DNA of 64,000 nt, taken from positions 248,001-312,000 of the forward strand of contig JAJZVX010000001.1 of assembly GCA_021846985.1 (NCBI GenBank), given 5' to 3'. The notes beneath the pieces were generated by a model. That model was not told the origin of the DNA. It did not search any database and saw only the letters and a list, made by a program, of their open reading frames with translations. Within the stretch, counting starts at the first letter, position 1. Every line of letters begins with the position of its first letter. Position numbers and translations under genes: made by a program. Shown here piece by piece: positions 2,750 through 10,957 of this stretch. This DNA comes from Acidobacteriota bacterium. Its GTDB lineage: Bacteria; Acidobacteriota; Terriglobia; Terriglobales; Acidobacteriaceae.

Positions 2750-2996
2750 AGGGCTGCCAGCGCTTGCGCGTTTCCGGGTGAGCGCAAGACAGGCCATTGC
2801 CTGCTGGCGGCATGCGGCAACGTTCCTGCCCCCGTCTTTCGCTCCGCGTTTCCATCGCATCCACGTTACAATCAAAGCTTCCGGCACGGCGCGACGGCTT
2901 GATGTACCTTTGACTTTGCCGCACTTCCTGTATGCGGCGCGGATGGGCGGCCGTCTTTGCCAGATCGGCGGACGAACAGCGGGAGATCGGGTTTTT

Positions 2997-5900
2997 ATGA
3001 TGGAGTTCCACATTGCGCGAAGCGCGCGCGACCGCTACCGGTTTGCGGAGTGTCTCTTTTCGTACACCGGTAACGTCGTCTTCGCCAACATGGGCGCCTG
3101 CCGCGAGTTTGCCTACCGCATGAACGAGGTGCGCGATGCCCAGCGTTTTCCCGAGCGTACCGTCCATGCCGGCGCGTTGTTCGCCATGGGCCTTATTGAC
3201 GAGGCCAGCCATGTGCTCATCGCCCGATACCGCGAGCAGTACGATCCCGAGGTCATCACCAGCGCCCTGGACTGGTTTTCGGCCCGCGTGGGAAGCGAAC
3301 AGCTCGACGCGATGCTTCTCGCCTTCGTTGAGCACTTCCCCGGCTCCAGCGTGATGCGTGGCGAGGAGACACCCCGCCAGTGGCTTGCCGGCCAAACCGG
3401 CGGCATCCCCCACCGCGCCGCCGCCTTCGAAGAGCTGATGCTGCTCTATGCAGCAAACCGGAACCCCGCATTCCAGCCCTTCGGCGAGCTCTTTGAGGAT
3501 GCGCCGCTGGCCGAGAAAACCGTCTATAAGCAGGTCACGCAGCAGCTTCCCGACTATTTCGCTACTCGTCCGCTCATTCCTCTGCCCGGCGCCAAGCAGG
3601 TCAGTCTTCTCGATCTCTTGCGCGCCCCGGTCGATAGCTCATCTTCCTCGCTCAGCGATCAGCTTGCCCTCATTCGCAGCCTCTGGAGAGTTTTGCTGGG
3701 CGACAGCCTCGAACGCCTGCTCCAGCTCGCGGGCGAAATCCTCCACGAAGAAGAAGTTGCACTCTGGACGCTCTTTCACCCCCACGGCGAACTCGAGGCC
3801 CGGCGCCGCGAGCACGGACTCCATCATCCCGGCGGCCCAGTTGCCACTGCCCAGGTACCCGTCTTTGGCGATCCCGCTTACGAATACGAGAGATTTTCTC
3901 CGGATACTGCCTGGATGCCCCATGTGGTGCTCATGGCCAAGAGCACATACGTGTGGCTGGCGCAGCTCAGCCGGCGCTACGGCCGCCACATCGGCCGCCT
4001 CGACGAGATTCCCGACGAAGTCCTCGATACCCTTGCCCGCCGCGGTCTCAACGCTCTCTGGCTTATCGGCGTGTGGGAGCGAAGCCGCAGCTCCAAAACG
4101 ATCAAGCAGCTCTGCGGCAACCATGATGCCGTCGCCAGCGCCTACTCCCTCTACGATTACGTTATTGCTGAGGATCTTGGCGGTGAATCGGCCTACATCA
4201 ACCTCCGCGATCGTGCCCTTCGTTACGGCATCCGCCTGGCCAGCGACATGGTGCCCAACCACATGGGCATCGACTCGCCGTGGGTGGTCGAGCATCCCGA
4301 GTGGTTCATCTCCCGCTGGGATCTGCCCTATCCGGCCTACAGTTTCAACGGCCCCGATCTCTCCCAGGACGGCCGTGTGGAAATCAAGATCGAGGACCAC
4401 TACTTCGAGCAGTCAGACGCAGCCGTTGTCTTCCGCCGCCGTGATCGCGCCAGTGGCGAAACCCGCTACATCTACCATGGCAACGACGGCACCAGCTTTC
4501 CGTGGAACGACACTGCGCAGCTCGATTACCTGAACCCAGCCGTCCGCGAACAGGTCATCCAGACCATCCTGCACGTTGCCCGTCTCTTTCCCGTCATCCG
4601 TTTCGATGCTGCCATGACGCTGGCCAAGCGCCACTTCCGCCGCCTGTGGTTTCCCGGGCCAGGTTCCTCGGGCGCCATCCCTTCGCGCGCCGAGTACGGC
4701 ATGACCGACGAAGAGTTCAATCGCGCCATGCCCCAGGAATTCTGGCGCGAGGTCGTCGATCGCGTCGCTGCAGAGGTCCCGGGCACGCTCCTGCTTGCCG
4801 AGGCCTTCTGGCTTATGGAGGGCTACTTTGTCCGTACCCTCGGCATGCACCGCGTCTACAACTCAGCCTTTATGGTGATGCTGCGCGACGAGGACAACGC
4901 CAAGTACCGCTCGGTCATCAAGAACACCCTGGAGTTCGACCCCGACGTGCTCAAGCGTTACGTTAACTTTATGTCGAATCCCGATGAAAGGACGGCAATT
5001 GACCAGTTCGGCCGCGGCGACAAGTACTTTGGCGTAGCCGTGATGATGGCCACCTTGCCTGGTCTGCCCATGTTTGGCCACGGTCAGATCGAGGGCTTTA
5101 CGGAAAAGTACGGGATGGAATACCGGTGGCCCCGATACCAGGAAGACCCCGACCCGTGGCTGGTGGAGCGCCATGAGCGTGAAATCGCCCCGCTGCTCAA
5201 GCGGCGTTGGCTCTTTGCCGAGAGCGCCAATTTTCTCCTGTACGACTTCTTCGAGCCCTCGGGTTTGGTTAACGAGAACGTTTTTGCCTACTCCAACCGC
5301 AGCGGGGCGGAGCGGGCTCTCGTTGTGTACAACAACCGCTATGCCGACGCCCACGGGACCATCGATGTTTCCGCGGCTTACGCCGACAAGGGCAGCGCGC
5401 AGCTCCGCCAGCGGCGCCTGGGCGAAGGCCTCGATCTCACCGCCGATCCCGCAGCCATTGTCGCCTTTCAGGACTCGCTCACCGGCCTCCAATTTCTCCG
5501 CCGGGCCGCGCAGCTTGCCAACAGCGGCCTCACTCTCGACCTTCACGCTTACCAGTGCCACGTCTTCCTCAACTGGCACAGCCTCTCGCCCACGCCCAGC
5601 GAGCCCTGGGATCGCCTTTGCGACTGGCTCAACGGCCGTGGTGTGCCTAGTCTCGGTGATGCGCTTGTCAATCTCCAGCTTCGCCCGGTCCACGATGCGC
5701 TGTGCGCTCTGCTGGACCCTCGTATCGTAGGCCTCTTTGCCGACCTCGCCGGCCGCCCGCGCTCCACAGCCCCCGAAGAGAGCCAGCATGCGACCGCGTT
5801 TCACGACCTCGCCGATGCCGCCTGGTCCCGTTGCGAGCCGTTCCTGCGCGCCGCTCAGACGGCCTACGCCGCGCGTACCGAGGGTCCCGATCAGCCTGTG

Positions 5901-6821
5901 GGCGCCACCCATCCTGCCAATCCGGCCCTGCTTGCTCCGGCTTTCCGCGCCCGTCTTCGCGCCGCTCTGCGTATTGCCGCTCTGGAGAACTTCTTCCCGG
6001 CGCCGTGGCCCGTCGCGGCCCGCGGCGTGCTGCCCAGCTATAGTCCGCAGACCTCTGCCACGGCTGTCTGCGGCCCGGTTCTCGCTTGGTGTGTTCTGCA
6101 GTTGCTCGCCGAGTCGATAGATCTGGATCGTCCCGAGCAGGTGGCGCTCGATCTCTTCGATCGCCTGCGGCTGCGTGCGCCTCTTGCCCAGTCCTTTGAG
6201 GCGCTCGGTCTGGAAGGTGAGGAGTCCTGGCGCGCCGCCGCGCGGCTGAAGGTGGGACTGCTTTCCGCTGCCGGCGCGCGACGCTGCGAAGAGCCCGAGC
6301 CCGATGCGGCGTCGGAGACTGTCTCCGTGCCTGCCGCTTCAGTTCCCTCTGCGCCCGCTCCGGAGTCCGCCGATGCGCAACCTGCTGCCGAGGAAAGCGT
6401 GGTGCTTGCGCCCGCCCTGTGGCTTGATCCGGACGTGCGCTGGCTGACTGGCGTACATGAAGCCGGTGGCTTCTTCTACCTGGTTCGCGAGTCCTACGAA
6501 GAGCTGCTTTGGTGGCTCATCCTTCCTGTGCTGCTCCGATCCGCCCTGGCCGCGCCGGATCGTGACGTCATGGTCGAACTGAATCGGGAGATGGATGAGG
6601 CATTGGCCACCGCCGAGGCGGCGCGCTATCGTATCGACCTGCTTCTGGCCTCTGCCCGCGGGGTGAGCAGCGACACGGATTCTTCGGAGGCGAGCGCGGA
6701 GCCGGTGATGCAGCCTGCAGTGAGTGAACATGCGCCGTCCGTCGCGGATGCGCACGGCGCAGAGATCGCGCCGCCGTCTCCGCAAACAGAAAGCGTTGAT
6801 TCGCGCATCGTTCCGGGCTGA
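2997..6821 (+). CDS. Very large alpha-amylase-family (GH13-like) protein
   Basis: 1274 residues from ATG 2997, which has GGGAG upstream; the frame stays open further upstream but without a convincing start. The GH13 (beta/alpha)8 catalytic motifs are visible in order. Region I is DMVPNHMG (about residue 417). Region II is VIRFDAAM, with candidate nucleophile D537. Region III is LLAEAFW, with acid/base E602. Region IV is SNPDE, with D663. All three catalytic acids are present, so a glycosidase or transglycosylase acting on alpha-glucans is plausible. The N-terminal ~330 residues and the C-terminal ~450 match nothing I recognise. A Pro/Ala/Ser-rich linker sits near residues 1100-1140. No signal peptide is visible, so it is probably cytoplasmic. 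It stands alone, with no adjacent glycogen genes. Confidence 0.8.
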   Translation: MMEFHIARSARDRYRFAECLFSYTGNVVFANMGACREFAYRMNEVRDAQRFPERTVHAGALFAMGLIDEASHVLIARYREQYDPEVITSALDWFSARVGSEQLDAMLLAFVEHFPGSSVMRGEETPRQWLAGQTGGIPHRAAAFEELMLLYAANRNPAFQPFGELFEDAPLAEKTVYKQVTQQLPDYFATRPLIPLPGAKQVSLLDLLRAPVDSSSSSLSDQLALIRSLWRVLLGDSLERLLQLAGEILHEEEVALWTLFHPHGELEARRREHGLHHPGGPVATAQVPVFGDPAYEYERFSPDTAWMPHVVLMAKSTYVWLAQLSRRYGRHIGRLDEIPDEVLDTLARRGLNALWLIGVWERSRSSKTIKQLCGNHDAVASAYSLYDYVIAEDLGGESAYINLRDRALRYGIRLASDMVPNHMGIDSPWVVEHPEWFISRWDLPYPAYSFNGPDLSQDGRVEIKIEDHYFEQSDAAVVFRRRDRASGETRYIYHGNDGTSFPWNDTAQLDYLNPAVREQVIQTILHVARLFPVIRFDAAMTLAKRHFRRLWFPGPGSSGAIPSRAEYGMTDEEFNRAMPQEFWREVVDRVAAEVPGTLLLAEAFWLMEGYFVRTLGMHRVYNSAFMVMLRDEDNAKYRSVIKNTLEFDPDVLKRYVNFMSNPDERTAIDQFGRGDKYFGVAVMMATLPGLPMFGHGQIEGFTEKYGMEYRWPRYQEDPDPWLVERHEREIAPLLKRRWLFAESANFLLYDFFEPSGLVNENVFAYSNRSGAERALVVYNNRYADAHGTIDVSAAYADKGSAQLRQRRLGEGLDLTADPAAIVAFQDSLTGLQFLRRAAQLANSGLTLDLHAYQCHVFLNWHSLSPTPSEPWDRLCDWLNGRGVPSLGDALVNLQLRPVHDALCALLDPRIVGLFADLAGRPRSTAPEESQHATAFHDLADAAWSRCEPFLRAAQTAYAARTEGPDQPVGATHPANPALLAPAFRARLRAALRIAALENFFPAPWPVAARGVLPSYSPQTSATAVCGPVLAWCVLQLLAESIDLDRPEQVALDLFDRLRLRAPLAQSFEALGLEGEESWRAAARLKVGLLSAAGARRCEEPEPDAASETVSVPAASVPSAPAPESADAQPAAEESVVLAPALWLDPDVRWLTGVHEAGGFFYLVRESYEELLWWLILPVLLRSALAAPDRDVMVELNREMDEALATAEAARYRIDLLLASARGVSSDTDSSEASAEPVMQPAVSEHAPSVADAHGAEIAPPSPQTESVDSRIVPG

Positions 6822-7384
6822 AGCGTCGTTCTCAACCCTGTCACGCGCGCCTCTTGCTCTGCCGTTCCGTGTTTTCGCCTGCGTGCTTTTTGTCACAACG
6901 AAAATGGTCTCCTTCGTCGTGCCTGGATCGTCACAAGGCGTTGTGACGAAATGCACATCGAATGCCTTCTCAAAGGGTTCAATGTTCCTCGCAAATCCAC
7001 TGGGGAGAAGGATGCCGAGAAGGCCGCGCGGAGAAAAGCGCCGTCGATCTGCTGCCGGTTCTTCTCTTGTTCGTTGGGTTCACTTCTTTTCCTTTCCCGT
7101 CATGTGGTCCGGACGTGAGGAGTGTGGCTAATGCAGCCGCTTGCCGATCGCCGCAACTACGGGGGCCGTTCTTCCGCCGAAGACAGAGGAAATCCTCTCT
7201 TGCCGGCGCCTCTTTCCCTATTGCGGTTTGTTGCCTTGCCTGCATTCCTTCCGGCTTTGTCCGCGCGGCATGGATGGCCGCCTGCCTCAGCCGTGGGCAT
7301 GGCGCTCCGCCATCGCTCTTTGCGGGCTTTCAACCGTGCCTGGGCGCACTGCGGCCGCCGCGCCTCGCTTTGAGGAGAGAAATC
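6822..7384. other. 563-base intergenic region before the Hox remnant
   Basis: No convincing gene on either strand. The only reading frame running into the downstream gene has poor composition and no ribosome site. It holds a perfect 8-bp inverted repeat at 6929-6948 and a third copy of the half-site near 6892. I saw no clear sigma70 promoter. Confidence 0.6.
6929..6948. promoter_or_regulatory. Perfect inverted repeat, possible operator
   Basis: CGTCACAA, four bases (GGCG), then TTGTGACG: a perfect 8+8 palindrome. A related half-site GTCACAAC lies at 6892-6899, 38 bases upstream. The half-sites face the opposite way from a Rex or CRP/FNR site. Distance to the next start is about 440 bases, so which gene it controls is uncertain. 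It could also form a short RNA hairpin. Confidence 0.35.
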
Positions 7385-7924
7385 ATGCCGAGCGTCACCA
7401 ACAATCATTTCAGTTCCCAGGAAAAATCGGCTATCGACCGGGCGATTGCCCAGCATAGCGGCCATCCCGGCGAGCTGTTGAGCATCCTCGAGGTTGTTCA
7501 GTCCGCCAATCCCCACAAATATCTCTCTCTGGAAGCACTTCGCTATGTTGCCGAGCGCACCGGTATTCCGCCCGCCACGGTCTACAGCACAGCCACCTTC
7601 TATTCGCTCTTCAATCTTGAGCCGCAGGGCGACAACGTGATCTGCGTTTGCCGCGGCACGGCCTGCCATACCCGCGGGTCGCGCGCGCTGCTGGAAAGGC
7701 TCTGTCTCGATCTGGGCCTCAGTGAGCACGAAACCGGCGAAACCAGGGACTCCGAACGCATTGCGCTTACCACCCCGGACCACAGATTCACTATTCGCAC
7801 CGTGGCCTGCTTTGGCCAGTGCGCTCTGGCTCCCGTCGCCGAGGTAAACCACCACATCTTCAGCCATGTCAACGAGCGCATTCTGCAGCGCGAGGTCAAG
7901 GCCTTGACACAGGGGAGGAAGTAA
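7385..7924 (+). CDS. NuoE/HoxE-like [2Fe-2S] subunit (24-kDa type)
   Basis: 179 residues from ATG 7385, preceded by GAGGAG. This is the thioredoxin-like ferredoxin subunit of NADH-linked diaphorases and complex I. It carries the four [2Fe-2S] cysteines C89, C94, C142 and C146 (CRGTAC and CFGQC). The N-terminal helical domain includes IPPATVYSTATFYSLF, a family hallmark. It would pass electrons from an NADH/FMN subunit to partner Fe-S subunits. Its downstream partner is fused and out of frame, and no hydrogenase or complex I subunit follows. The gene itself looks intact but is likely an orphan left from a HoxEFU-type module. Its stop overlaps the next start (TAATG). Confidence 0.85.
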   Translation: MPSVTNNHFSSQEKSAIDRAIAQHSGHPGELLSILEVVQSANPHKYLSLEALRYVAERTGIPPATVYSTATFYSLFNLEPQGDNVICVCRGTACHTRGSRALLERLCLDLGLSEHETGETRDSERIALTTPDHRFTIRTVACFGQCALAPVAEVNHHIFSHVNERILQREVKALTQGRK

Positions 7925-8764
7925 TGCCGCGCATTCAAGATCTCGGTGTCTTCAGCGCCGTCCGCGAGGCCGGACTTGCCAAGCTCGTTCCGCCCACCAC
8001 GCCGCGCCTCACCGTGGGCATGGGCACCTGCGGCCAGGGCAATAACGCCGAGGAGATTTACGACGGCCTGGACGAGGCCATTGGCCGCAGCGGTCACCAC
8101 GTGATCCTGGCCGCGGTTGGCTGCTTCGGCGCCTGCTTTGAGGAGCCGCTCGTCGCTGTGCGCCTTCCCGGTTATCCGCTGGTGATGCTGCGTCGTGTCC
8201 AGATCAACGACATCACGCGCATTCTCGAGTCGGTTTTTACCGGTGTCATCCCAGGCGACCTCATCTATTGCAAGATTGAGGAGTGGGATCACATCACCGG
8301 TTCCGTTCGCTATGGCCAGGGCTATCCGGATATTGCCCTGTGGAACGCCATACCTTTTTTCAGCGCGCAGAAGAAGATCGTCCTGCGCAACTGCGGGCTG
8401 ATCAACCCTTCCGACATTGAGGAATACATCGGCGTTGGCGGTTATCAGGCTCTTTACAAAGTCCTCATCGACGGCCGCCCCGAGTCCATTGTCGAGTTGG
8501 TCAAGCTGGCTCGTCTGCGCCGAGGTGGAGGGCGCGCATGTGTGGGAGATTGCTTCACGCGGCATCCACTCCCGCCTGGTTTGCGACATGGCGGATGACT
8601 GGGGACACGCCAAAAACTGCACCAACTGCGGCAAGTGCGTTGAGGCCTGTCCCACCGGTGCTCTGGCTGAAAAAGGCTTTCCCGTGATGCAAATGGTCAA
8701 GGAAAGCGAAAAGATCAGCTATCTGGCCCAGCAGCGTACCTCCCACGCCCGCCGTGCCCACTAG
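7924..8764 (+). pseudogene. hoxF-hoxU deletion chimera (diaphorase remnant)
   Basis: From 7924 to about 8515 the sequence encodes the start of a HoxF/NuoF-type protein: an N-terminal thioredoxin-like domain (RLTVGMGTCGQGNNAEE, VGCFGACFEE), then the start of the FMN domain (NPSDIEEYIGVGGYQALYKVL). At about 8516-8537 the homology jumps, with a frame change, to the end of a HoxU-type subunit: CAEVEGAHVWEIASRGIHSR, then CTNCGKCVEACPTGAL, stop at 8764. The HoxF frame runs on to a stop at 8598. Missing are the rest of HoxF (FMN/NADH site, Fe-S) and the start of HoxU. The joint falls where the two genes should look alike (LRGRGGAG coding against CAEVEGA coding), suggesting a microhomology deletion. 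A mis-assembly is the alternative. Confidence 0.8.
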
Positions 8765-8917
8765 CATCGCGCGGCGGGATGCCGAAGCCGTCCACTGGGT
8801 GGCAGGGAGCCACTTCTTCCGGCCTTTGCATCCGATTCCATTTGTCGCAAACGCCCCAGGTCCGTAAAATCGACGTTGACGGTTAATTGTGCGTGACTCC
8901 AGCAGCATCAGGTGCCG

Positions 8918-9763
8918 ATGAGCGAACAGAAAGCAGGGAACACCACCGAAGCGGCGGCCACTTCGCCAGCTTGGGCAAGAATCGAGTTGGCGCGTCATGC
9001 CCAGCGCCCTTACCCCATGGACTTCATCGAGCGGATCTTCACCGATTTCAGCGAGATTCACGGGGATCGCGCCTTTGGCGACGATGAGGCCGTGGCCTGC
9101 GGTATGGCGCGGCTCGGCGGCGATGAGGTCATGGTCATTGGCAACCGCAAAGGCGGCACCACCAAGGAGCGCGTGCGCCGTAACTTCGGCATGCCCCATC
9201 CCGAGGGTTATCGCAAGGCGCTGCGCGCCATGCGCATCGCGGAAAAGTTCTCACGCCCGGTAATCAGCTTGATCGATCTGCCCGGCGCCTATCCCGGCCT
9301 GGGCGCGGAAGAGCGTGGCCAGGCGGAGGCTATTGCCCGCAACATTCTGGAAATGTCCCGTCTGCGCGTGCCCACTATCTCCGTCATTAGCGGCGAGGGA
9401 GGCTCCGGCGGTGCGCTGGCCCTGGCCGTCAGCGACCGCGTGCTCATCCTTGAAAACGCGCTCTACTTCGTCATTACCCCTGAGTCCTGCGCCGCCATCA
9501 TGTGGCGCGACGCCGCCAACAAACAGCTCGCCGCAGAGGCCATGCGCATCTCCGCTCCGGAAGTTGCTGCGGTCGGTTGCGTGGACGAGATTATCCCCGA
9601 GCCTTCCGGAGGCATTCATACCGACCACGAGACCGGGGCCGGACAGCTTGGCCTCGTACTCAAGCGTTGCCTGGCAGAGCTCAAGGCTGTTCCTACGGAT
9701 GCCCTTGTCGCCGCGCGCCAGAAGAAGTTCCGCAACATCGCGCAGTTTTATACGGAAAGTTGA
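8918..9763 (+). CDS. accA: Acetyl-CoA carboxylase carboxyltransferase subunit alpha
   Basis: 281 residues from ATG 8918; an in-frame GTG at 8912 is possible. It transfers carboxyl from carboxybiotin to acetyl-CoA, the first committed step of fatty-acid synthesis, as a cytoplasmic alpha2-beta2 complex with AccD. Family hallmarks are RPYPMDFIERIFTDFSEIHGDRAFGDD, GGTTKERVRRNFGMPHPEGYRKALR, LIDLPGAYPGLGAEERGQ, and the oxyanion-forming glycines in SGEGGSGGALAL. It is shorter than the roughly 319-residue E. coli protein because the N-terminal helical extension is reduced. accD is not nearby. The upstream Hox remnant appears unrelated. Confidence 0.95.
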   Translation: MSEQKAGNTTEAAATSPAWARIELARHAQRPYPMDFIERIFTDFSEIHGDRAFGDDEAVACGMARLGGDEVMVIGNRKGGTTKERVRRNFGMPHPEGYRKALRAMRIAEKFSRPVISLIDLPGAYPGLGAEERGQAEAIARNILEMSRLRVPTISVISGEGGSGGALALAVSDRVLILENALYFVITPESCAAIMWRDAANKQLAAEAMRISAPEVAAVGCVDEIIPEPSGGIHTDHETGAGQLGLVLKRCLAELKAVPTDALVAARQKKFRNIAQFYTES

Positions 9764-9859
9764 TAGCCGTGTTCCGCCGTACACTGTGAGTGACTTGGTT
9801 GCCATGACTGGTAAAGTCCCTGTAGCCTTTGGAATACGCGCCGTCGCAGGAGGACGCCC

Positions 9860-10957
9860 ATGAGCGCTTCCCCTCGCGGCATTCTTCGCTACCGTGCTTT
9901 TCTGGAGTTCCTCGCCGCCGTCTTCTACTTCTTTTTTGCCCGCTCCATCGCCCATCGCGCTGCCCTCGGACTCGTCCAGGATCCATGGGTACCGCTCATT
10001 GAGCAGCTCGCACTCGTTTTTCTATTGCTGGCGGGCTATGCGGCGATGGGTATGCTGCTCGACGGTCACATCGGCCCCCTTGCTGTACAGGGCTGGCCGC
10101 GTCGCGAGGGCTGGCGCGGAGAAGCCGGTCTGGGCATGGCCGTCGGCTGGTCCCTTGCCCTGGTTTGCGTTCTTGCCATGGTCTGCGACGGCGGCATTGC
10201 CATCGTCCTGATCCTTCAGTCCTATGCCGGGGGATGGCTTGTCGTCGATCTTGTCTTCTTCGCTCTCGCCGCCATGGTAGAAGAGGTTGCTTTTCGCGGC
10301 TATGGCTTCCAGCGTTTCGTTGAGGCGGTGGGTCCCGTCGGCGCCTCGCTCGGCTTTGCTGTCTATTACGCGATTGTGCAGGCGCTTCTGCCCGGCGCCA
10401 ATCACGCCTCCATCGCCGTCTCCATCGCCTTCAGCCTCGCGCTCTCGGTTGCGTACCTGCGCAGCCGCGCGCTCTGGGTAAGCTGGGGCCTCAACTTCGG
10501 CTGGAAAGCCAGCCGCGCTCTCATCTTCGGTCTCGCTGTCAGCGGGCTGGGGAGCTTCTCGCCTGTCGTCCAGGGCGATCCCATGGGGCCATTCTGGATC
10601 ACCGGCGGCGGCTTCGGCCTCGACGGAAGCTGGTTTGCTTTCTTCGTCTTCCTCGCCGCCATCCCGGTCGTCTTCCGCGTCACCCGCAATCTCGACTTCC
10701 GCTACAACGCGCCGGTGATTCTTCCCGGCGGCATGCCCGTGGATCTAGATGCCTCTGTCCGCGCCCGGCACGAGGCGTTTGCGGCTCCGGCAGCCGCATC
10801 CGCGCCGCCCCCGCTTGTTCAGATCGCCGGGCTTCCTTCGCAGTCGCCCGCTTCCGGAGCCAGTTCCTGCGGTCCCGGCCCGTCCACGGCGCCTCCGCAG
10901 GAGCCCGGAACGCCGCCCGCTGCGGACCCCGGTGGCGTGCCGTCCGGCCCTGCGTAG
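9860..10957 (+). CDS. CPBP-family intramembrane protein (CAAX protease-like)
   Basis: 365 residues; the start is set by CAGGAGG ahead of ATG 9860. About seven to eight hydrophobic segments are followed by a Pro/Ala-rich cytoplasmic tail (about residues 300-365). The Abi/CPBP motif EEVAFRGYGFQRF (EExxxR) is clear near residue 140. The second motif, normally FxxxH, is not clear: an NHASI stretch occupies its place. The third motif reads SWGLNFGW, without the usual leading His. It may therefore be a protease with altered metal ligands or a non-proteolytic member. Substrate unknown. Confidence 0.8.
   Translation: MSASPRGILRYRAFLEFLAAVFYFFFARSIAHRAALGLVQDPWVPLIEQLALVFLLLAGYAAMGMLLDGHIGPLAVQGWPRREGWRGEAGLGMAVGWSLALVCVLAMVCDGGIAIVLILQSYAGGWLVVDLVFFALAAMVEEVAFRGYGFQRFVEAVGPVGASLGFAVYYAIVQALLPGANHASIAVSIAFSLALSVAYLRSRALWVSWGLNFGWKASRALIFGLAVSGLGSFSPVVQGDPMGPFWITGGGFGLDGSWFAFFVFLAAIPVVFRVTRNLDFRYNAPVILPGGMPVDLDASVRARHEAFAAPAAASAPPPLVQIAGLPSQSPASGASSCGPGPSTAPPQEPGTPPAADPGGVPSGPA

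Follow-up and report, generated by a model that had tools for sequence, protein, structure and literature searches.

The described systems closest to the locus reported here are two electron-bifurcating transhydrogenases, Stn, the Sporomusa-type Nfn complex (StnABC), and Nfn-Bfu of Thermococcus sibiricus, both of which combine NuoE-like, HoxF/NuoF-like and ferredoxin-rich subunits with a GltD (FAD/NADPH) domain and lack a hydrogenase. The respective studies place the GltD domain on the NuoG-like subunit in Stn and on BfuA in Nfn-Bfu (PMC10482914, PMC7483475, PMC9304861) and propose a GxGxxA pattern for NADP(H) in Stn (PMC7483475). The B2 ligands of the Bfu family of electron-bifurcating enzymes are given as C438, C476 or Thr, H525, C531 and C536 (PMC9304861). 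For acidobacteria, the literature mentions an ordinary Nfn homolog in Koribacter versatilis (PMC6405883) and, for a cultured isolate, a HoxEFUYH hydrogenase of group 3d (PMC6252331). A literature search of partial coverage returned no description of a HoxF::GltD fusion, with or without a hydrogenase; none appears in the available portions of PMC7325909, PMC6349859, PMC6405883 and PMC6252331, and PMC11406978, screened by search terms, likewise yielded none.

Our analysis suggests that precisely such a fusion once occupied the locus investigated here. Very likely, a young, microhomology-type deletion of ~3.1 kb inactivated a hydrogenase-free, Stn/Nfn-like complex encoded by an operon of the order hoxE - hoxF::GltD - hoxU. 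The window, i.e., the entire 64,000-nucleotide stretch of DNA that was analyzed, belongs to a 3.79-Mb assembly on 48 contigs, which scored 100% complete and 0.18% contaminated. The genes and remnants described below for this region lie on the forward strand. The left-hand neighbor of the operon is a long alpha-amylase-type gene (2847..6821; PF00128, 4.3e-5), identified by eye as trehalose-synthase-like (TreS), whose frame is open from 2778 and whose start at 2847 is provisional. It is followed by hoxE (7385..7924), an open frame of 179 aa for a NuoE-like, thioredoxin-type [2Fe-2S] subunit, whose product matches Pfam 2Fe-2S_thioredx (6e-37) and reaches 104.6 bits against HoxE NF005747, below the cut-off of 224. 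To the right of the operon and outside the complex lie accA (8912..9763; NF004344, 386.5 bits, above the cut-off of 357) and, as second neighbor, a CAAX-protease-type gene (9860..10957; PF02517, 3.6e-8).

Between hoxE and accA, only the two ends of the remaining operon are left. The 5' remnant of hoxF::GltD (7924..8520) comprises approximately codons 1-199 of a ~1055-codon gene. Its frame starts with the ATG at 7924 and encodes a HoxF-type N-terminus up to ...ELVKLARLR; past 8520, it runs out of frame through hoxU DNA (RGGGRACVGDC...) to a stop at 8596-8598. The HoxF piece had no Pfam or NCBIfam match at E 0.01; in the full HoxF of a relative, the first Pfam match, Complex1_51K, starts only at residue 192. 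Nevertheless, where matches span residues 1-191, the remnant and the N-terminal regions of its homologs in the genus share 65-77% identity. The 3' remnant of hoxU (8512..8764) begins at about codon 159 of ~236, so that the start and the first ~158 codons are gone, and retains the last CxxCxxCxxxC [4Fe-4S] motif. Its HoxU sequence (CAEVEGAHVWEIASRGIHSR...CTNCGKCVEACPTGALAEKG...) is read from 8516 to 8764 in a frame different from that of HoxF, covers positions 157-235 of 238 in NCBIfam HoxU NF005745 (4e-29; 101.7 bits, below the cut-off of 333) and is 58-76% identical to the hoxU ends found in the genus. A direct reading of the frames thus bears out the original prediction that a HoxF-type N-terminus starting at 7924 is joined, with a frame change, to a HoxU-type C-terminus ending at 8764. 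The joint is a real feature of the assembled sequence, but its site is the sequence CGTCTGCGC at 8512..8520, a few bases before the interval 8516-8537 initially proposed. As anticipated, this sequence can be read both ways, since it fits the R-L-R of LRGRGG in hoxF as well as the R-V-C-A of RVCAEVEGA in hoxU.

The missing part was reconstructed from related genomes. Many genomes of the same genus have syntenic loci of the order TreS - hoxE - hoxF::GltD - hoxU - accA - CAAX, with the TreS homolog upstream of hoxE, accA after hoxU and the CAAX gene likewise in synteny, and in other genomes of the genus the operon sits elsewhere. Comparison with the operon of these relatives, in which hox matches below 50% and ABC matches below 55% identity were hidden, gave hoxE - hoxF::GltD - hoxU as the form of the operon in the genus. 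In the ~1055-codon HoxF of the relatives, the HoxF part (Complex1_51K, NADH_4Fe-4S) forms one protein with a module of the GltD type (Fer4_20, Pyr_redox_2). The homologous cut points lie 2814-3208 bp apart in all 26 measurable same-genus genomes (matches of at least 55% at loci holding both ends; L050 of genome G017 was left out, its HoxF match ending at residue 142), and between these points the relatives show matches to the FMN, GltD and HoxU N-terminal parts. The loss of ~3.1 kb is about twice the 1.4-1.5 kb originally estimated, a figure that was too small because the HoxF protein of this operon carries a fused GltD domain.

The sequences at the cut sites also speak for a deletion that fused hoxF with hoxU, probably at a microhomology. 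The number of bases common to both homologous points ranges from 0 to 12 nt in the 26 relatives (mean 4.6) and is at least 6 in ten of them, whereas among 48,000 random point pairs of similar distance, drawn from loci no shorter than 9 kb, common stretches of at least 6 nt occur with P = 0.002 and of at least 9 nt with P = 0.00008. By codon chance, the two sites are prone to share a short sequence. Given that the parental bases of the species itself are gone and that the relatives span 0-12 nt, the 9-nt microhomology at the joint is a putative feature of the ancestral sequence. Cuts would have occurred near hoxF codon 199 and hoxU codon 159, leaving CGTCTGCGC at the joint, presumably by end joining or by replication slippage at the microhomology. 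With this event, the FMN/NADH site and the B1 and B2 iron-sulfur sites would have disappeared together with the GltD (FAD/NADPH) domain and roughly two thirds of HoxU, leaving a complex that cannot work. A deletion between longer repeats was considered and rejected: a search for repeats of at least 14 nt in the region 7300-9800 gave five imperfect inverted pairs and a sole direct pair, 8507-8520 with 9354-9367 (86%), the latter within accA. Plasmid records yielded one match only, which covered 7% of the query.

Could the joint be an artifact of assembly or binning, with an operon that is in fact intact and an assembler that skipped ~3.1 kb or merged two alleles or strains? The joint is known from the assembly, and one of the other loci examined (L217) looks misjoined, so that misjoined contigs probably occur in such data. 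However, the repeat at the joint measures just 9 nt, and assembler misjoins normally need repeats far longer than that. In addition, the joint is free of Ns, its surrounding region is present only once in the assembly, within a contig of 394 kb, and none of the contigs of this complete and barely contaminated genome carries the missing piece as a leftover. When intact hoxFU was sought in the same assembly, the missing part was found only in the form of paralogs, with the best matches to an 862-aa HoxF query from a relative and to HoxU (59% and 62%, respectively) falling into a separate hydrogenase operon on contig C18 and all others being more distant; a translocation of the missing piece was therefore rejected as well. 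An assembly error, raised at the outset as the alternative to young decay, is accordingly improbable. Even less credence can be given to the idea that HoxE together with the truncated HoxF, or the out-of-frame product of the joint, constitutes a working reduced protein, for which the chances appear very small. Although hoxE and the N-terminal part of HoxF are open and conserved, the young age of the deletion accounts equally well for their clean reading; moreover, the remnant is devoid of the sites for FMN, NADH and the main Fe-S clusters, the start of hoxU is gone, and such a form was seen in none of the 26 measured relatives.

The original prediction had interpreted the locus as the recent loss of an NAD-linked diaphorase/hydrogenase whose catalytic subunits would be expected after hoxU. 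It is true that no hydrogenase subunits follow: genes for the small and large subunits are absent from beside hoxEFU at the window locus, where accA comes next. However, the same holds for the 27 genus loci that include the hoxU end, none of which has hydrogenase genes beside the hoxF::GltD operon (three of them, L052, L150 and L156, have less than 0.9 kb of DNA beyond hoxU). Hydrogenase subunit genes do follow hoxF in 48 of the 56 scanned loci from outside the genus, and six of the eight exceptions break off ahead of hoxU, a pattern that would speak for a hydrogenase loss. Yet, the window genome still possesses a separate operon (G000 contig C18:6559-12024, L038) with hoxE, a hoxF gene without GltD, hoxU, the hydrogenase small- and large-subunit genes and a gene that by eye encodes a maturation protease; HoxF and the hydrogenase subunits were assigned by family profiles, HoxE and HoxU by similarity. 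The closest solved chain to its large subunit is 7t2r_D, and homologs of this subunit (E 1e-30) are present in 70 of 80 genomes of the genus and in 41 of the 42 better ones. In L153, a separate operon of the C18 type lies ~9 kb from the hoxF::GltD operon. Near the C18 operon, we also noted, by eye, a long pyruvate:ferredoxin oxidoreductase-like gene and a HypF-like gene. With a genus operon that is free of hydrogenase genes and a hydrogenase retained on C18, the loss of a hydrogenase in the deletion event was rejected, leaving the proposed recent loss of an NAD-linked hydrogenase as a highly unlikely explanation. The reading we favor, a young deletion within a hydrogenase-free operon, shifts the loss of the hydrogenase genes to an earlier time.

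This earlier history emerges from a scan of named genomes, of whose 125 loci the best 80 were kept. Most of these records are from Acidobacteriaceae and metagenome-assembled genomes of other Acidobacteriota, many of them with bog, fen or palsa in their isolate names, and they suggest that the window, too, comes from a member of the Acidobacteria group. FMN and GltD domains are combined in one ORF in 72 of the 80 loci, while three loci end too early and five show the FMN domain only. By an exact 200-base test, 24 of the 80 match loci fetched for the genus, and hydrogenase genes are absent from all 24; the remaining loci are the 56 mentioned above, of which L170 and L217 have hoxU without a hydrogenase gene. 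In L184-L244, hoxE - hoxF::GltD - hoxU is followed by genes for the [NiFe] hydrogenase small and large subunits in many Acidobacteriota, and the same hydrogenase-linked architecture was observed in some Chloroflexi and in two alphaproteobacterial records. In L217, unknown bases occur in hoxU at ~9700-9790; its hoxF side groups with hydrogenase-linked loci, and accA follows hoxU as in the window genus. A tree of HoxF and HoxU, rooted with the C18 paralog and built from 79 HoxF and 85 HoxU sequences of 94 loci (71 distinct pairs, C18 included), unites the 24 hydrogenase-free genus sequences in one clade with a support of 0.67. Supports of 1.0 and 0.98 are reached at the nodes directly below, where the hydrogenase-linked L204, L226 and L230 join, but the one that follows has a support of 0.0. 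The 26 tips scored as having no hydrogenase comprise this clade as well as L231, which ends soon after the small-subunit gene, and the seemingly misjoined L217. Because 48 of the 56 outside loci carry hydrogenase genes, their removal probably dates to the base of the genus and preceded the deletion in the window, and the ancestral complex probably worked together with [NiFe] hydrogenase subunits. The simplest reading is a single event at the genus base that took away the hydrogenase genes but spared the rest of the operon, which was then itself lost repeatedly.

Within the genus, a close hoxE was detected in 32 of 80 genomes, the window genome included; it forms one frame in 30 relatives, in which it is 64-77% identical to the window copy, and is split in two pieces in genome G064. 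In G064 (L143 / L197), hoxE, the GltD part of hoxF and TreS are each matched in two pieces, which may reflect either several errors in sequencing or another copy of the operon in decay. On a tree of TreS, accA and CAAX, shown without branch supports (41 tips after G095, with 385 aligned positions, was skipped), genomes with the operon are interleaved with genomes in which it was not found. TreS lies directly beside accA in three genomes without the operon (G102, G013 and G098). Five further loci without it (L125, L126, L128, L130 and L131) have 3.2-3.8 kb of other DNA between TreS and accA. The window thus looks like one further, young loss among several absences of the operon in the genus, although some of these absences may stem from incomplete drafts, and horizontal transfer could have contributed to the pattern. 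The presence of both full and empty states of the locus within a single genus makes a gene loss seen at such an early stage useful. A replacement of the complex by the membrane transhydrogenase was rejected: a search of the window genome for PntB was negative, and the distribution of PntB in the genus (12 of 80 genomes, four with and eight without the operon's hoxE) does not track the operon.

The notion of a young decay, put forward from the clean reading of the flanks, is upheld by the absence of stops and indels from the remnants and by invariant positions, whose conservation is similar to that in relatives possessing the complete operon. Changes at otherwise invariant positions amount to 2/54 in hoxE, 2/61 in hoxF and 0/25 in hoxU (31, 32 and 27 sequences, respectively, with L143 of G064 and HoxF positions after 188 dropped), which is within the range of the other genomes, whose maxima are 3, 4 and 2. 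When neutral drift was simulated with an indel rate of 5% of substitutions, clean remnants were obtained with P = 0.51, 0.04 and 0.002 at 0.01, 0.05 and 0.1 substitutions per site, respectively, compared with P = 0.73, 0.30 and 0.09 when stops alone were considered, so that the age bound for the deletion depends on the assumed indel rate. After dropping pairs with a control distance below 0.1, the ratio of hoxF/hoxU to control divergence in the window (1.05) was the highest of 14 genomes (others 0.77-1.00), and for the three genes together, window pairs averaged 1.07 versus 0.87 (sd 0.16) for other pairs. These raised ratios may be taken as a sign of some relaxation in the window and would count against extreme youth. 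Dating by rate is weak because no close relative exists. As 0.54 substitutions per site separate the window genome from its nearest relative on the tree, the deletion probably is a young event that happened late on a long branch.

What enzyme was lost can be judged from the domains and ligands of the relatives. In their HoxF::GltD and HoxU proteins, all 15 conserved cysteines and one histidine of HoxU as well as the B1, B2 and GltD cysteines of HoxF are retained throughout, both in the 26 sequences that lack an adjacent hydrogenase (26 of 26) and in the 44 that have one (44 of 44). The B2 ligand set H-x5-C-x4-C occurs in 70 of 70 HoxF::GltD proteins, and alignment of a relative's protein to 7t2r_B places C, T, H, C and C (counted by eye) at the B2 positions. 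A ferredoxin-type CxxCxxCxxxC motif is found in none of the 70, GltD following directly, and an SLBB domain gave no match in a relative's HoxF::GltD at E 0.001. The GxGxxA pattern is likewise present in 70 of 70, the strict G.GPTGL motif in 48. HoxU of the relatives is a plain protein of ~236 aa without a GltD domain and, in one relative, reaches 348.1 bits, above the HoxU cut-off of 333. Among solved structures, the HoxF part of a relative's protein is best matched by 9n5u_B ('NfnB'; 8.7e-186), then by 7t2r_B and by others including 9bov_B and 8oh5_B, which we take to be Stn-type chains. Judged by sequence, the lost complex probably was a hydrogenase-free, NAD(P)H-handling enzyme similar to Stn and Nfn-Bfu, which may have exchanged electrons between NAD(H) at the FMN and NADP(H) at the FAD, with HoxU as a putative port for a third partner. 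Other GltD-like domains are present elsewhere in the window genome. On its contig C4 (L246, 1124-5691), two adjacent genes encode large flavin/Fe-S proteins, one of them HdrA/GltD-type by eye, which might constitute an electron-bifurcating system.

The deletion scar itself represents an ordinary gene loss. The wider point is the lost enzyme, as the HoxF::GltD fusion occurs in many Acidobacteriota, both with and without a hydrogenase, and in genomes could easily be mistaken for a normal subunit of Hox or Nuo. Its architecture is more interesting than the scar and deserves biochemical work. More speculatively, and with considerable doubt on our part, the relatives may exhibit an undescribed bifurcating design, in which a Bfu-type core has the ferredoxin-binding end of HoxF swapped for GltD and directs its low-potential branch to NADP+. 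If so, the complexes with hydrogenase subunits, which make up the majority outside the genus, would use H2 to reduce NAD+ and NADP+ jointly, and those without, as in the window genus, would act as transhydrogenases with HoxU as the port for a third partner. The species of the window would then have lost such a design only recently. Bifurcation to NADP+ would extend the Bfu scheme and change the genome-based reading of H2 use by these bacteria.

Compared with known systems, the joint in the window is nothing special: in microhomology-mediated deletions of bacterial genomes, two cut sites have a few bases in common, a single copy of these is retained and the interval is gone, as may be the case here, where the parental sequences are modeled on relatives only. 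The HoxEFU diaphorase of bidirectional [NiFe] hydrogenases has the same gene order, hoxE-hoxF-hoxU, and the HoxU score of the relative fits this family, whereas the operon of the genus differs by its GltD fusion, the lack of adjoining hydrogenase subunits and a HoxE that stays under the family cut-off in both the window and a relative. With the Bfu family, HoxF of the relatives has the B2 ligands (Cys, Cys/Thr, His, Cys, Cys) in common, which are lost from the window copy, but the C-terminal ferredoxin-type domain of BfuB (IPR017896; clusters B3/B4) is absent from HoxF::GltD. Stn and Nfn-Bfu resemble the lost complex most closely in their subunits and in the lack of a hydrogenase; in the hoxF::GltD loci, however, GltD is not joined to the NuoG/HoxU-like subunit, and the genus, whose copy in the window is broken, instead carries it fused to the end of HoxF, at the place of the ferredoxin-like domain.
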